A stretch of DNA of 64,000 nucleotides, taken from contig JAGTJL010000019.1 in NCBI GenBank assembly GCA_020746875.1, positions 496,001 to 560,000 on the forward strand, in the 5' to 3' direction. The position numbers were made by a program, and so were the translations under genes. The notes under the pieces are model-generated. The model was not told the DNA's origin and did no database searches. It saw nothing but the letters and a program-made list of their open reading frames with translations. Of this stretch, positions 30,625 through 52,059 are shown piece after piece (positions within the stretch are counted from its first letter, which is position 1; each line of letters starts with the position of its first letter). This DNA comes from Rhexocercosporidium sp. MPI-PUGE-AT-0058 (Eukaryota; Ascomycota; Leotiomycetes; Helotiales).

Positions 30625-31078
30625 TTTGTTGGGGAGAGGGAAGGCTGCCGCGCTGTTGAAATTGTCAGTCGCGGATCTCGGGGGGACAAGAGGGTATCCG
30701 GGGGGTTAGCAGCTCTTTCACAAATCACGAAAAACGTGTTTCAGTAAAGATGTACTCACCACAAGACCAAAGTGAGGGGCAATAAAGAAGTGTCAATGTT
30801 TGATGTAAACAGTGGTTGCTGCTTGTGCTACGGGTTGTTGTCTGCACGAACGCGACTAGGACGGCTAGCCAGGGGGCACCGAACCCGCATCCCTGCTAAA
30901 AACGGTCCCAGCGCTGCAGGGCATCCAGATGTGGCCAGAAGACCAGACGACCAGACGACCAGACGACATCCATTCGCAGTTGCACAGTACAGTCGGACAT
31001 TCCCACCTTGCCTCAGAATCTGGAGTCCACGGCAATACATTTCCTCAAAAGTGCTATTCACACTACCCGGCGTCTACA
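30625..31078. promoter_or_regulatory. Bidirectional promoter region, STU1 / BSP-family gene
   Basis: About 450 bp between divergent starts. It contains a short direct repeat of CCAGACGA near 30940-30968. An in-frame ATG at 30929 could extend the BSP protein by 50 residues, but the extension is Gln/His/Thr-rich with no conserved look. Confidence 0.55.
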
Positions 31079-31993
31079 ATGGTGGACTCATCTCCAGTGC
31101 CTCCTCTGGTCTTCATGCCTCCACAGTCATCCCGGACCTCAGCGCCCACCCCCACTTCAACCTCAATTCCCCCGCCTTCCCAAAAGCCCATTTCTTCGAA
31201 ACCAGATCATCCAGAAGACGAATCTTCCTCTAAAGCCTCCAAATTCCCACTACCCAAGCTCCGTCTCGAGATCCGCGACCTCAACCATGAAGGATCCCTG
31301 ACATTCCTAAAGGCTGTCATTGCCAGTAAGGCTCTCGAGAAGTCTGTCCAAAGTGTCCTATCTCTCCTATACCATTCGCCAGACTCGCAGACAACAACTA
31401 TACCAACAACACGCTCCGTAACTCTGATCCTCAGGTCTATGCCAGGTGTTGCCTACACGACTGGCAGCGATCTGGACGACGACCACAAAGAAATCCATTT
31501 CTCCCTAGACTACATACATGGAATATCGGAGTCTCGAAAGAAAGACGAGATCATGGGAGTTCTCACCCACGAAATGGTTCACTGCTTTCAATACAACGCT
31601 TTTGGCACATGTCCAGGTGGTCTCGTTGAAGGAATCGCAGACTGGGTGAGGTTGAATGCGGATCTGAGTCCACCCCATTGGAAGAAGGAAGCAAGCGGAA
31701 AATGGGATGCAGGATATCAACATACCGGATATTTCCTAGAGTATCTCGAGCACAGGTTTGGCAAGGGAACTATCAGGAGATTGAACGAGAAGCTGAGGAT
31801 CGAGAAATATCATGAGAAGCGCTTTTGGACTGAGCTGATTGGACGCCCCGTCGAGCAGTTATGGGGGGACTATTCTGATGTTCTAGAGAAGGAGATGAGG
31901 AAGGCGGAGGAGGATGAGTGTGTCCTAGTTGAGAAGGAGGATGCGAGTGCCCCGAGGACATCTAATGATGCTTTAACCCTGGCCTCGACCTAG
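31079..31993 (+). CDS. Basic secretory protein (BSP) family, putative zinc metallopeptidase
   Basis: A single-exon protein of 304 aa. After a Ser/Pro/Thr-rich N-terminus comes the BSP domain (about 60-285): PKLRLEIRDLNHEG, then VTLILRSMPGVAYTTGSDLD and HKEIHFSLDYI. The zinc site THEMVHCFQ follows (H164, E165, H168), and then GGLVEGIADWVRL, GYFLEYLEHRFG and QLWGDYSDVL. This is the usual BSP (plant peptidase-like) order, with the HExxH and EGIADWVR signatures intact. No signal peptide is visible from ATG 31079, so despite the family name it may be intracellular. The family is known from plant defence proteins and occurs widely in fungi with unknown substrates. Activity is inferred from the motif only. 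Confidence 0.92.
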   Translation: MVDSSPVPPLVFMPPQSSRTSAPTPTSTSIPPPSQKPISSKPDHPEDESSSKASKFPLPKLRLEIRDLNHEGSLTFLKAVIASKALEKSVQSVLSLLYHSPDSQTTTIPTTRSVTLILRSMPGVAYTTGSDLDDDHKEIHFSLDYIHGISESRKKDEIMGVLTHEMVHCFQYNAFGTCPGGLVEGIADWVRLNADLSPPHWKKEASGKWDAGYQHTGYFLEYLEHRFGKGTIRRLNEKLRIEKYHEKRFWTELIGRPVEQLWGDYSDVLEKEMRKAEEDECVLVEKEDASAPRTSNDALTLAST

Positions 31994-33695: not shown

Positions 33696-35597
33696 ATGTC
33701 ACTTTCTGCCGCTTTCGACGTCTTATTCCAGGGCTACACGCCTTCAGTTATTCTAGGGGTTGCAGCTGTTCTCCTCGTCTGTTGGCAACGACTGTCCGTG
33801 AAGTGTGACCCTCGGGAACCGCCTCTCCTGAAACCAAGCATCCCTTATATTGGCCACATCATTGGGCTCTTTAGATACAATGGCGAATACTTTGAGAAAT
33901 TGAAGTATGTACTCTTTGTCCCGACCTGATCAGATCCCTAAAAATATACAGCGCCAAAAAGCCCTTGCCTATTGCTACCCTTCCAATGATCAATGGCAAA
34001 CTGTACATCATTACATCGCCGGGTCTTGTCCAAAGTGCTTTCCGAAACAAGAATTTGTCCTTTGATCCATTCATGATTGATTTTGCGCAGCGTATGCTTG
34101 CCCTTTCAGAGGTTCGTGATTTTCCATCTTATCTTTCTTGTTGACTTTATTTCCGAAATAGCTAGCCTAGAGGAGATATTGCTACAAATATAAAAGCTTC
34201 AAATTCTCCTAACTTAATGCTGACGTTATTTAGCAAGTGATGGTAGCGATTAGAGACAAGCCAGACTTTATCCCAGGGATGGTCAGAGAGATTCATAGCT
34301 CCATGCTCGGAGAACACTTGCACAAGATGAATGCAGATGCGCTCAACAATGTTGCCCTCACCATCAACGGACTATCAGACACTTTCAAACCAGACAGTCT
34401 GTACCTCTGGATTCGGGAAACCTTGACTATGGCTACCTGCAATACGCTTCTCGGGTCTCACAACCCGTTGAAGAATGACTCGAGCTTGGTAGATGCTCTG
34501 TGGTGAGTCCTCTCCGGTCATTCTCTCTTTGTTTAGATTCTAATAAGAGATTTTAGGGACTTTGAAGCTGGAATCCTTCCACTCGTTCTGGGGATAATGC
34601 CGTCAATTGTTGCACCTAAGGCGTACAAAGCAAGGGCAACCGTCCAAGCCGCACTTCAAAAATATTACACCAAGAAATATGAGCTTGACCCAGATGTTGC
34701 AAAGCTGACGAAGGTAAGATGGTCTATTCCAAGATCACGCCCCCTTCATTGAGGGACAGACCCCAGTGTTCATCTACATCATCTGAAGATCTGACCTAAA
34801 AAAAACTAATATAACGAGTACAGGCCCGCGCTGCGTTCTACCGACAGTACAAGATATGTTCAGATGATATTGGGAAGCTAGAGCTGGCCCTCTTGCACGT
34901 TTCCACCGCAAACGCCATCCCGACACTGTTCTGGCTCCTCGCGTTCATTGTTTCCGATCCAGCACTCGTTGCCAGTCTCAGAGAAGAGTTACCTGCCGTC
35001 ATCACCGTCTCGGAGTCTAAGGATGGAAAACGCGAAGCACACGTCGACATCACAAAATTCGACCCTAATAGCCCACTTCTAGTATCCTGCTACCGCGAAG
35101 TCGTCCGTCTCGTGAACTCGCAACTAGGCACTCGTCGTGTAATGGCAGATACCACGATCTCAGACGGCAAATCAACCTACCTCCTTCGCAAAGGCTGGGA
35201 TGTGAACATGCCATCCGGTGTCTCTCACATGTCAACTCAATCATGGGGACCCAACGCTACATCCTTCGACGCGAGACGATTTATGAAGCTCGATGCAAAA
35301 GGTGCTATGAGCGAGAAAGCGAAAGAAGAAAAACGAGCATACATCCCTTTCGGTGGAGGAAAGCATCTCTGTCCAGGCCGCAACTTTGCTTTCGCGGAAA
35401 TTTTAGGATTTGTCGCTGCGATGGTTATGGGGTTTGATGTCAAGGCGAAGGATGGTGGGTTGATAGAGGTGCCGGAGATTAGGAGGGCGAGACTCGGAGA
35501 GGCGGTTTCGAAGCCTTTTGGAAAGGGGCTTGAGATGGGGGCGAAGATTACGAGAAGAGAGGGGTGGGAGGATGTCGTTTGGCAGTTCACCACTTGA
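33696..35597 (+). CDS. Cytochrome P450, CYP7/CYP8-like
   Basis: Exons 33696-33904, 33952-34111, 34234-34502, 34557-34713 and 34824-35597 give 522 aa, the usual P450 length. Introns are 47, 122, 54, 110 bp, all GT-AG. An N-terminal membrane anchor (SVILGVAAVLLVCW) precedes a basic/proline hinge. The I-helix reads STANAIPTLFWLL (about 292-304). The acid-Thr pair of typical P450s is replaced by the ANxIP form known from cholesterol 7-alpha-hydroxylase and prostacyclin-synthase-like P450s. The ExxR is REVVR (E357, R360), the PERF-like motif is DARRF, and the haem loop is FGGGKHLCPGR with Cys448. The enzyme is probably ER-bound; its substrate is unknown. It lies 1.1 kb upstream of, and on the same strand as, the VPWAR-repeat gene, so a joint pathway is possible but unproven. 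Confidence 0.93.
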
Positions 35598-36411: not shown

Positions 36412-36693
36412 ATGCCTCTTTCCTACAAATACCCCTCCTACCTCCTACGTCCTCCATCCTCCATCCTCCATCCTTCTTCACTTCAACCCACAATCAACAA
36501 CAGACAATCAACAACAACAACACCACTACCTTCAGGCTTTCATACCTTGCCAAGAGCAGCCTCATACTCTGCAACACACAACCCCAAAACCTCTGAGGTC
36601 AACGCGCCTCACCCTCAAACTTTAACAACCACTCCACTTCAACTTCAACTACCTCCCCACCTACCTCGACACCAACAAACACATACACTCACA
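36412..36693 (+). promoter_or_regulatory. CA/CT-rich leader of the VPWAR-repeat gene
   Basis: Between an ATG at 36412 and the assigned start at 36694 there is no other ATG. The stretch contains TCCTCCATCC repeats (36448-36473) and CAACAA-rich sequence (36490-36520), as in leaders of highly expressed fungal genes. The start is in the strong context CACAATGG. The upstream ATG is in frame, but it would place a Pro/Ser/Gln/Thr-rich extension before the signal peptide, so I treat this as leader or core promoter. Confidence 0.65.
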
Positions 36694-37317
36694 ATGGCTT
36701 ACCACAAGGCCAACCTCACCACCCTCCTCCTCGTCTTCCTCACCTTCATCATCTCAGTCACCAGCATCCCCATTAGCTCTGAGTTCACCTCTATCAGCAA
36801 GGTCAATGCTCGCGCCGAGGACTTCGAGTTGAGCTCTGGCAGCACTCCCGTCCCATGGGCTCGCTCTATTGACGACAAGGTCGCTCGTGGTGAAGACCTT
36901 GAGCTCAGCACTGGTAGCACCCCCGTCCCTTGGGCTCGATCTGTCAAGGATGCTCTCAAGAATATTCCCGTTCCATGGGCTCGATCTGAGGCTCCAAACG
37001 ATGTTCCAGTTCCATGGGCTCGCTCCGAGGAGAATATTCCTGTCCCATGGGCTAGATCCGTGGATAGTGCTGAAGTCTCAAAGGATATTTCCGTTCCTTG
37101 GGCCCGATCTGCCGACAACGCTGCTGCGGAGTCCACCAAGGATATTCCCGTTCCATGGGCTCGTTCGGAGGAGAACACTCTAGTTCCATGGGCCCGCTCC
37201 GTCGAGAATATCCCGGTTCCTTGGGCTCGTTCAGTCAATAGCCCAACTGAAGCTCCAAAGGACATTCCAGTCCCATGGGCTCGTTCCGAGGAGACCATTC
37301 CAGTTCCATGGGCTTGA
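36694..37317 (+). CDS. Secreted multi-copy peptide precursor with eleven VPWAR repeats (RiPP-like)
   Basis: A single-exon protein of 207 aa. Residues 1-24 are a signal peptide (NLTTLLLVFLTFIISVTS). The rest has no Cys and is made of spaced copies of a short core, consensus [DN]-[IV]-P-V-P-W-A-R-S. Cores are at 52-57, 77-82, 92-97, 105-110, 116-121, 133-138 (SVPWAR), 152-157, 163-168 (LVPWAR), 174-179, 192-197 and 203-207. The last copy ends PVPWA directly at the stop. Spacers are acidic and variable (SEEN, SEAPND, SVDSAEVSKD). The first two copies lie in a 20-residue duplication (ARAEDFELSSGS / ARGEDLELSTGS). Such layouts are known from fungal pheromone precursors and dikaritin RiPPs, which usually use Lys-Arg sites; here only a single Arg follows each core. 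Function is unknown; I infer a processed peptide near (I)PVPWA. The P450 upstream is the only nearby candidate tailoring enzyme. Confidence 0.9.
   Translation: MAYHKANLTTLLLVFLTFIISVTSIPISSEFTSISKVNARAEDFELSSGSTPVPWARSIDDKVARGEDLELSTGSTPVPWARSVKDALKNIPVPWARSEAPNDVPVPWARSEENIPVPWARSVDSAEVSKDISVPWARSADNAAAESTKDIPVPWARSEENTLVPWARSVENIPVPWARSVNSPTEAPKDIPVPWARSEETIPVPWA
36844..37314 (+). repeat. Coding repeats encoding the VPWAR cores
   Basis: Eleven copies of an 18-nt coding unit at irregular 33-75 nt spacing. Codons differ between copies at silent sites (GTC/GTT, CCA/CCT, GCT/GCC, CGC/CGA/CGT/AGA) while the peptide stays the same. Trp is always TGG, and most copies therefore contain an NcoI-type CCATGG. 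Confidence 0.93.
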
Positions 37318-50047: not shown

Positions 50048-50805
50048 CACGCAAACTTATCACATTGCCCTCGCTCGCTCGCTGCACAGCGGGTTGCGCC
50101 TAAGCCTCGTTTGTTCCTGCTCTTCCGCCCTCCCTCCCTCTGTCTCTCGCTCGCCGCCCTCCCCCCTGTCGCCCTCCTGTTCCTCCCTAATCCATCCATC
50201 CCACGCCCACACCCACACTCACACCCACACCTCCACCCACAACCCACGCTCAAGCAAGCACGCCTGCCTCGCCCACAAGCCCACACTTTTTTATCCCCCC
50301 TCTACTCCACTTTCTTCCCCCCTGGTCGCTTCTGCCCTCTCTTCTCTCCCCCTTGTCCTGTCTTGCCTTGCCTTTGCCCTCCCTGACTCCGACCGACTTC
50401 TACTTCCCCCCCTAAAACTAAAACTACGACTGGGCCGACCTACGTCTAAGCACGCACGCCTACAGCCCTTCCTTCCTCCTTCGTATAAGACTGCCACCCC
50501 CTCGGTACTCCTCTCCTCCGCTACCGTCAGAAGATTTCGAAACTGAATCCCACCCACGCTGCATCCCATCCCATCCCACCACCACAATACCACTACAACA
50601 CCACAACAACACTTCCACTCGACTCTTCCACCAAACAACACCCTTTTGATTTATCTTCCAAACCATATATACGACATCTCACCCCTTGTTACCAACCGCT
50701 CTCGACAGAGAAATTATTCTCTTCCCCCCCGCCTTGCCACTCTCCGCATTCCACAGAAAGATTAAATAAAGTGCGGGTATCCCCAAACGCTGCGGCGGCA
50801 ATCAC
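50048..50805 (+). promoter_or_regulatory. Long C/T-rich, ATG-free leader/promoter of creA
   Basis: The 758 bases before the creA start contain no ATG on the coding strand, and most of the stretch is pyrimidine-rich with CCCAC and CTCC tracts. The last upstream ATGs are at 50045 and 49891. This fits a long 5' UTR. Matches to the CreA site SYGGRG on the reverse strand occur at 49798-49803, 50038-50043, 50516-50521 and 50742-50747. That is about the chance frequency, so autoregulation is only suggested. Confidence 0.65.
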
Positions 50806-52059
50806 ATGCAACGCGCGCAGACATCAGTAGATCTTCTACTGAATCCACAAACACCTCTGGAGAAGGAACAGGAAGCTGCCAGGAGGAAATTGGCCGAGAT
50901 CCAGGCGCAACAGCAGAGACAACACGAAGAAGAAATGGCCGCCGTTATGATGCAGCCGAATATGATGGGGCCCCAGCATGGAGAGGACCGACAAGACCTC
51001 CCGCGTCCATACAAGTGCCCTCTGTGCGATAAGGCCTTCCACCGTCTCGAGCATCAGACCAGACATATCAGAACACATACCGGCGAGAAGCCGCACGCCT
51101 GCCAGTTCCCAGGCTGCACGAAACGATTCTCGAGATCGGACGAGTTGACTCGACACTCGAGGATACACAACAACCCCAACTCCCGCAGGAGTAACAAGAT
51201 GCACCAGGGTGGAATGGAGCACACAGGAGCCATGGCTACCATGATGCCACCTCCGACCAAGAACATGTCGAGGTCAGCCCCAACTTCAGCTGTTGGCTCT
51301 CCAAACGTGTCCCCTCCACACTCCTACGCTTCATACTCGACACCACACTCAGTTCTGAACCCAACATTCCGCAGTCTGGGGGGAAGCCCAAACAACGGTT
51401 CGAGTCTCGACATCAACCTGCTAGCCACAGCTGCAACCCAAGTTGAGCGAGAGAGCACTTTTGCCACACATCACCCTCACCATAGCAGCTCAAGACATCA
51501 CCCGTACTACAGCCACAGCAGTCACAACAGCAGAAACCACCTGCCTTCGTTATCCGCTTACGCCATGTCGAGATCACATTCCCACGATGAGGACGACCAT
51601 TACGCGCATCGACATGCGAAGCGATCCCGTCCAAACTCACCAAACAGCACGGCTCCATCATCTCCCACCTTCTCCCACGACTCATTGTCACCTACACCCG
51701 ACCACACTCCTCTCGCCACTCCAGCCCACTCGCCTCGTCTTCGACCCTACGGTGGTGGCTACGATTTGCCAACAATTCGCAACTTGACGCTTCAACATAC
51801 TCCCGCTCTCGCACCAATGGAGCCCCAAAATGTCGAGGGCCAATACCACCCAAACATTACCGCCACTTCCGCACCCAGAACCGGACTTTCAATCAGTGAC
51901 ATCATGTCAAAAACCGACGGAACGCAAAGGAAACTTCCAGTCCCGCAGGTCCCAAAAGTCGCAGTCCAAGACCTGCTCAGCTCCGGCGAGAATGGCTTCA
52001 GCACAAGCGGCCACAGCAGCACAACCGGTAGCGTCGCAGGGGATATGATGGACAGGTAG
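50806..52059 (+). CDS. creA: Carbon catabolite repressor CreA/CRE1 (C2H2 zinc finger)
   Basis: A single-exon transcription factor of 417 aa that represses genes for alternative carbon use in the presence of glucose. It starts [15 protein letters not shown], the usual CreA start. Two Mig1-type C2H2 fingers follow [21 protein letters not shown]71, C74, H87, H91 and, after the TGEKPHA linker, C99, C104, H117, H121. The finger region is essentially the canonical CreA sequence through [12 protein letters not shown]. Downstream, the conserved regulatory region [16 protein letters not shown] ... [20 protein letters not shown] ... [18 protein letters not shown] is present, then [15 protein letters not shown] and a C-terminal repression region ([19 protein letters not shown]). 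It is complete and stands alone between two gene deserts. Confidence 0.98.

Follow-up and report, generated by a model that had tools for sequence, protein, structure and literature searches.

The gene at positions 36694 to 37317 of the window, by which we mean the entire 64,000-nucleotide stretch of DNA that was analysed, encodes a small protein carrying eleven copies of the tetrapeptide VPWA. The question is whether these copies are parts of a working protein or the products of a precursor that is cut apart, and, if the latter, to which kind of precursor the protein belongs.

The open reading frame that the earlier note had placed here is indeed present on the forward strand, as a coding sequence of 207 amino acids that is read without an intron and followed by a TGA stop codon, and the gene is real. 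Its codon usage (AAG in 8 of 8, CTC in 7 of 10, and ACC in 8 of 12 cases) is biased relative to seven other reading frames in the window, with one-sided, uncorrected Fisher p values of 0.024 for AAG, 0.002 for CTC, 0.033 for GAG, and 0.005 for ACC. The bias is not significant for TTC, AAC, ATC, and GTC, the remaining four of the eight codons tested in the same comparison. A longer in-frame ORF begins at 36412, but because the third-position GC content (GC3) of its 94 additional codons is only 0.37, we read this extension as what looks like a 5′ leader. The leader, together with the start context CACAATGGCT, presumably resembles those of highly expressed fungal genes. The features at this end of the gene are as follows.

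36420 to 36693, forward strand: probable promoter and 5′ leader, a pyrimidine-rich part followed by a CAAC-rich one, the start-codon context being CACAATGGCT, and low GC3 in the in-frame extension
36694 to 37317, forward strand: coding sequence of the precursor, an open frame whose codons are biased when compared with seven other frames in the window
36694 to 36765, forward strand: putative signal peptide, residues 1 to 24, from hydropathy and a modeled helix at residues 8 to 23

The N terminus is signal-peptide-like both by hydropathy and in a single-sequence structure model. Its hydrophobic region, residues 11 to 21, has a mean Kyte-Doolittle value of 2.95 (11-residue windows, every second start), and the highest 15-residue mean past residue 30 is 0.27. 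The helix at residues 8 to 23 is the best-scoring part of the model, wherein nothing past this signal helix is confidently folded. We placed the putative signal cleavage site by eye between VTS and IPIS. The protein contains no cysteine among its 207 residues, just as had been claimed. No Pfam domain is found in it at E values up to 0.01, and a sequence search of the PDB returned a single match (E 0.37) that is not credible.

The repeat itself differs somewhat from its original description as eleven copies of (I/V)PVPWAR separated by acidic spacers. VPWA does occur 11 times, but Arg-Ser follows it in only 10 of the 11 copies, and the strict patterns [IV]PVPWAR and [IV]PVPWA are matched by six and seven copies, respectively. 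The dipeptide immediately ahead of VPWA is IP in six copies, TP in two, and VP, IS, and TL in one each. Spacers between copies range from 4 to 18 residues, and nine of the ten are net acidic, the exception being SVKDALKN. The copies, all on the forward strand, are located as follows.

36844 to 36864, forward strand: copy 1, TPVPWAR
36919 to 36939, forward strand: copy 2, TPVPWAR
36964 to 36984, forward strand: copy 3, IPVPWAR
37003 to 37023, forward strand: copy 4, VPVPWAR
37036 to 37056, forward strand: copy 5, IPVPWAR
37087 to 37107, forward strand: copy 6, ISVPWAR
37144 to 37164, forward strand: copy 7, IPVPWAR
37177 to 37197, forward strand: copy 8, TLVPWAR
37210 to 37230, forward strand: copy 9, IPVPWAR
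37264 to 37284, forward strand: copy 10, IPVPWAR
37297 to 37317, forward strand: copy 11, IPVPWA and then TGA where the Arg codon is expected

The end of copy 11 deserves attention. The triplet that follows its TGA is TCA, a Ser codon, which matches the Ser found after the other copies. This arrangement is consistent with a CGA-to-TGA change that would have shortened an older array, and the missing Arg fits a product whose last residue is Ala.

VPWARS is identical in all ten complete copies, even though the synonymous sites encoding it have diverged (pS 0.57); the accompanying pN of 0.01 derives from pathway counting in the six-codon families of Arg and Ser. For VPWA, which is identical in 11 of 11 copies, pS is 0.42, and pN rises to 0.066 over eight columns that include the two variable residues ahead of VPWA. 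These pairwise counts were taken over related copies that are not independent, and we treat them as strong qualitative evidence to which no p value is attached. The identity of VPWARS despite synonymous divergence indicates that the peptide, rather than the DNA, is conserved. Thus, the copies are old at the DNA level and are not recent duplicates, and their protein sequence is unchanged.

This motif appears to be confined to a single gene. In the 62.7-Mb genome, the DNA pattern GTNCCNTGGGCNMGNTC has ten matches, all of which reside inside the precursor gene, and the reversed control pattern has one. When the genome was searched at the protein level with E values up to 10 and all four first-look candidates were scored, the precursor gene was recovered and no second copy. 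Among 722 ORFs in the surrounding 264 kb (ATG start, at least 60 amino acids, overlapping frames included), only the precursor ORF and its own antisense frame repeat any pentapeptide with three or more letter types at least four times. Non-fungal contigs from viral and prokaryote genomes gave 1 and 30 pattern stretches, respectively, and no relative by tblastn, a result that has no bearing on orthologues in fungi.

The distribution of Arg residues bears directly on how such a protein might be processed. The sequence carries no KR, RR, KK, or RK dipeptide, in agreement with the proposal that a single Arg rather than Lys-Arg follows each core; however, this Arg is present after only ten of the eleven cores, the last ending in Ala and the stop codon. 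Ala precedes 12 of 12 Arg residues, compared with at most 7 in 20,000 shuffled sequences, although few independent events underlie this statistic: ten of the Arg residues lie within the repeat and two lie ahead of two near-identical 17-residue segments. Asn or Asp stands directly ahead of the hexapeptide formed by VPWA and the two residues before it in 8 of 11 copies, an excess over spacer composition with a binomial value of 1e-4 that assumes independent copies and is overstated for related ones. Kex2 favors dibasic sites, and yapsins have monobasic specificity. As candidate enzymes, the genome contains one match to a Kex2-type P-domain, next to which we identified pieces of a catalytic domain by eye, two trypsin-family exon matches at one place, and two places with a total of three matches to DPPIV_N. 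Separately, an idea that the products might inhibit DPP-IV, suggested by an IPI-like N terminus and by the IP, VP, and WA dipeptides, was considered and dropped as a matter of resemblance.

We consider it reasonably likely that the gene encodes a secreted multi-copy precursor that is cut at single Arg residues and trimmed by a Kex1-type enzyme to give linear extracellular peptides with a VPWA end, a reading in which we infer secretion, each cleavage step, linearity, and function, whereas the open frame, the repeats, the constraint on the motif, and the absence both of dibasic sites and of UstYa matches on the contig are observed directly. The precursor would be secreted and cut at the single Arg after Ala, whereupon a Kex1-type carboxypeptidase would remove the Arg to leave a peptide ending in VPWA. 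The N-terminal portion of each product, which is variable and mostly acidic, might be retained or trimmed, and linear hexapeptides of the IPVPWA kind would be the smallest likely products. Once released, the conserved peptide would most likely have an extracellular role, either as a diffusible signal or as an ecological effector. This interpretation is supported by the identical VPWARS in synonymously diverged copies, by the occurrence of Arg only in Ala-Arg contexts, by a last copy that stops exactly at the Arg position, and, weakly, by a single-sequence model that has no confident fold past the signal helix.

In the DNA surrounding the precursor gene, the nearest gene recognized on the upstream side encodes a cytochrome P450.

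33696 to 35594, forward strand: cytochrome P450 gene with introns, start placed by eye (Pfam PF00067, E 3.2e-23, on the exon at 34815 to 35594)

When its 3′ exon, the sole part tested, was compared with solved structures, the best PDB match was CYP7A1, and a CYP8B1-type 12-alpha-hydroxylase and prostacyclin synthase were also among the closest, all of a sterol and lipid group. This P450 is probably not part of the precursor system. An ORF at 30869 to 31993, farther upstream and some 5 kb from the precursor gene, encodes a PF04450 (BSP) peptidase (E 9.8e-74), and a C2H2 zinc-finger ORF recognized by Pfam at 50770 to 52059 presumably resembles the carbon-catabolite repressor CreA. Of the 11 stop-to-stop frames of at least 130 amino acids at 37.4 to 50.7 kb, 8 were compared with Pfam, together with two frames at 56.6 and 60.3 kb. 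None of them reached a cut-off (best E 0.043), in a scan that could miss small or intron-split genes and that is represented between 31,990 and 36,400 by the P450 exon only. Scans of the window for Rfam families and tRNAs returned nothing, and a search for the ribosomal DNA of the fungus, with an Rfam model and with a fungal 5.8S sequence, gave no 5.8S match.

The same genome offers a useful point of reference. Genome-wide, there are at least 57 UstYa-family matches, which are exons rather than genes, with groups on contigs C34, C2, C7, C6, and C58. None of these 57, a lower-bound count, is on C11, the contig that carries the VPWA precursor. On C34, a KR-type repeat precursor of 195 amino acids with six YVHGSYGYD-KR units (G000:C34:2599.5-2600.1 kb, L026/L027) lies within 8 kb of nine UstYa exon matches, and this locus is probably a dikaritin cluster with an unfamiliar core. 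Past its first 20 residues, the C34 protein has six dibasic sites and no lone Arg, whereas the VPWA protein past its first 24 residues has no dibasic site and 12 lone Arg residues. Since the C34 protein, the one example that serves as an internal control, has the classical KR arrangement, having single Arg sites instead is specific to the VPWA gene. The scan covered 41 kb, made up of three UstYa neighborhoods and the Kex2 neighborhood; those on C7 and C2 yielded no repeat precursor, nor did a similar scan of the short loci L002 to L005. The numerous UstYa groups represent many candidate RiPP loci in this genome.

Several other explanations for the gene can be weighed against processing at single Arg residues. 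The protein might remain uncut, as a secreted and disordered repeat protein of the cell wall, an adhesive, or a repeat-type effector in which PVPWARS serves as a multivalent binding motif. Conservation of VPWARS would suit a binding motif equally well, and the absence of dibasic sites and the low-confidence, seemingly disordered single-sequence model are in keeping with this idea. However, the last copy lacks the otherwise invariant Arg and Ser, Arg occurs only after Ala, and other secreted repeat precursors are apparently cut after a lone Arg, as parts of PMC9769878 describe. We therefore regard an uncut protein as unlikely, while giving it some weight. A chance ORF over a minisatellite, with no gene present, could account for the partial tandem repeat in the DNA (period 33, 2.5 copies), but it is extremely improbable given spacers that vary in length, synonymous positions that are scrambled while the protein is kept, a codon bias that is significant for four of the eight codons tested, and a start that resembles a signal peptide.

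Two known types of processed precursor were also considered. A dikaritin-like cyclic RiPP would require modifying enzymes that are unlinked, such as UstYa proteins encoded elsewhere, or that are supplied by the neighboring P450, with Trp or Ile as the modified residue. The genome's 57 UstYa-family exon matches, the same-strand P450 gene some 1.1 kb upstream, and an overall layout like that of the C34 precursor would be compatible with such a product. Yet C11 carries none of the UstYa matches, as opposed to nine within 8 kb of the C34 precursor, the VPWA copies contain no Tyr, there are no dibasic sites, and the P450 exon is nearest to CYP7/8-type enzymes, making this explanation improbable. 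We do not file the precursor as a dikaritin because two defining features are absent: UstYa/UstYb (DUF3328) genes near the precursor, of which C11 has none, and a Kex2 dibasic site following each core. A sexual pheromone precursor of the alpha type in an unusual form is a very unlikely alternative, although the signal-like start and repeated cores are suited to it and the Pleosporales motif PYG[LM]P[IV]G, as an exact pattern, has no match in the genome. For Dothideomycetes, parts of PMC6339444 give two alpha-pheromone types, one with a two-Cys core and one with a PYGxPxG core. The VPWA precursor has neither the Cys pair nor PYGxPxG and contains no dibasic site, with the caveat that these types may not be those of the fungus studied here, which may not be a Dothideomycete. 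The dipeptides after the ten WAR sequences are SV (four), SE (four), SI (one), and SA (one), such that XA occurs once in ten.

Taken together, the gene is probably not that of a dikaritin and probably encodes a precursor with many peptide copies, from which cleavage at single Arg residues would release mainly linear peptides ending in VPWA. The earlier suggestion of a processed-precursor layout is therefore retained in the form of a secreted multi-copy protein with single-Arg sites, which is the best reading, whereas its likening to dikaritins is not supported, given the lack of dibasic sites and of UstYa matches on the contig and the CYP7/8-like 3′ exon of the P450. We tentatively suggest a larger possibility, namely that there is a fungal class of multi-copy peptide hormones or effectors whose release depends on yapsin- or trypsin-like cleavage at single Ala-Arg sites and not on classical Kex2 dibasic processing, a class of which the VPWA gene would be a first example. 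If so, this class would be invisible to the surveys of Kex2-processed repeat proteins (KEPs) in PMC6339444 and PMC7329392, at least by the rules given in parts of these papers. The presence of a likely precursor with only single-Arg sites in a genome that also contains a clean KR-type one suggests an overlooked set of secreted fungal peptides, which could be found by altering one search rule from dibasic sites to a single Arg. The precursor would also be a simple natural substrate for identifying the fungal protease that acts at monobasic sites. Interest would be modest if the peptide proved ordinary or the protein uncut.

Among the papers listed by full-text literature searches with VPWAR, PVPWA, and PWARS, all look unrelated, judged by their titles and the openings of their abstracts. 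Literature on monobasic cleavage, on repeat-type precursors, and on UstYa, including parts of PMC9233826, showed no single-Arg multi-copy precursor. We call the VPWA(R) motif undescribed with reference to this literature, namely to full-text searches, to term look-ups in PMC7329392 and PMC12048977, and to parts of two surveys.

Among known systems, the dikaritins of the ustiloxin, phomopsin, and asperipin type, represented here by the C34 protein, share with the VPWA protein a signal-like N terminus, acidic spacers, and repeated cores, but the C34 protein has dibasic sites and nearby UstYa exon matches and the VPWA protein has neither. Ascomycete alpha-pheromone precursors are secreted and yield a linear peptide in multiple copies, as proposed for the VPWA precursor, but the latter lacks a dibasic site as well as the Cys pair and the PYGxPxG core, and no XA/XP signature follows its presumed cut. 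Another parallel is with KEPs, which parts of PMC6339444 (Le Marquer et al. 2019) and PMC7329392 (Umemura 2020) portray as secreted precursors in which numerous short, nearly identical cores alternate with processing signals. The eleven copies exceed the minimum of three similar repeats expected of a KEP, but no KR, RR, KK, or RK separates them, a lone Arg after Ala standing in that position. Because the detection rules of both surveys demand dibasic sites, the VPWA precursor would be missed by them, and it may nonetheless work as a KEP does while lacking the dibasic sites that define one. For Agaricomycete KEPs expressed in Pichia pastoris, parts of PMC9769878 report peptides that, by mass spectrometry, were apparently cut after a single Arg, and relatives of one such KEP have cores with a C-terminal Trp; these KEPs, unlike the VPWA precursor, are defined by dibasic sites, have different cores, and belong to Basidiomycota. 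According to PMC7329392, DUF3328 genes accompany the genes for 22% of KEPs, so the absence of UstYa is usual for KEP-like genes. Thus, it is the absence of dibasic sites, and not that of UstYa, that distinguishes the VPWA precursor from KEPs.
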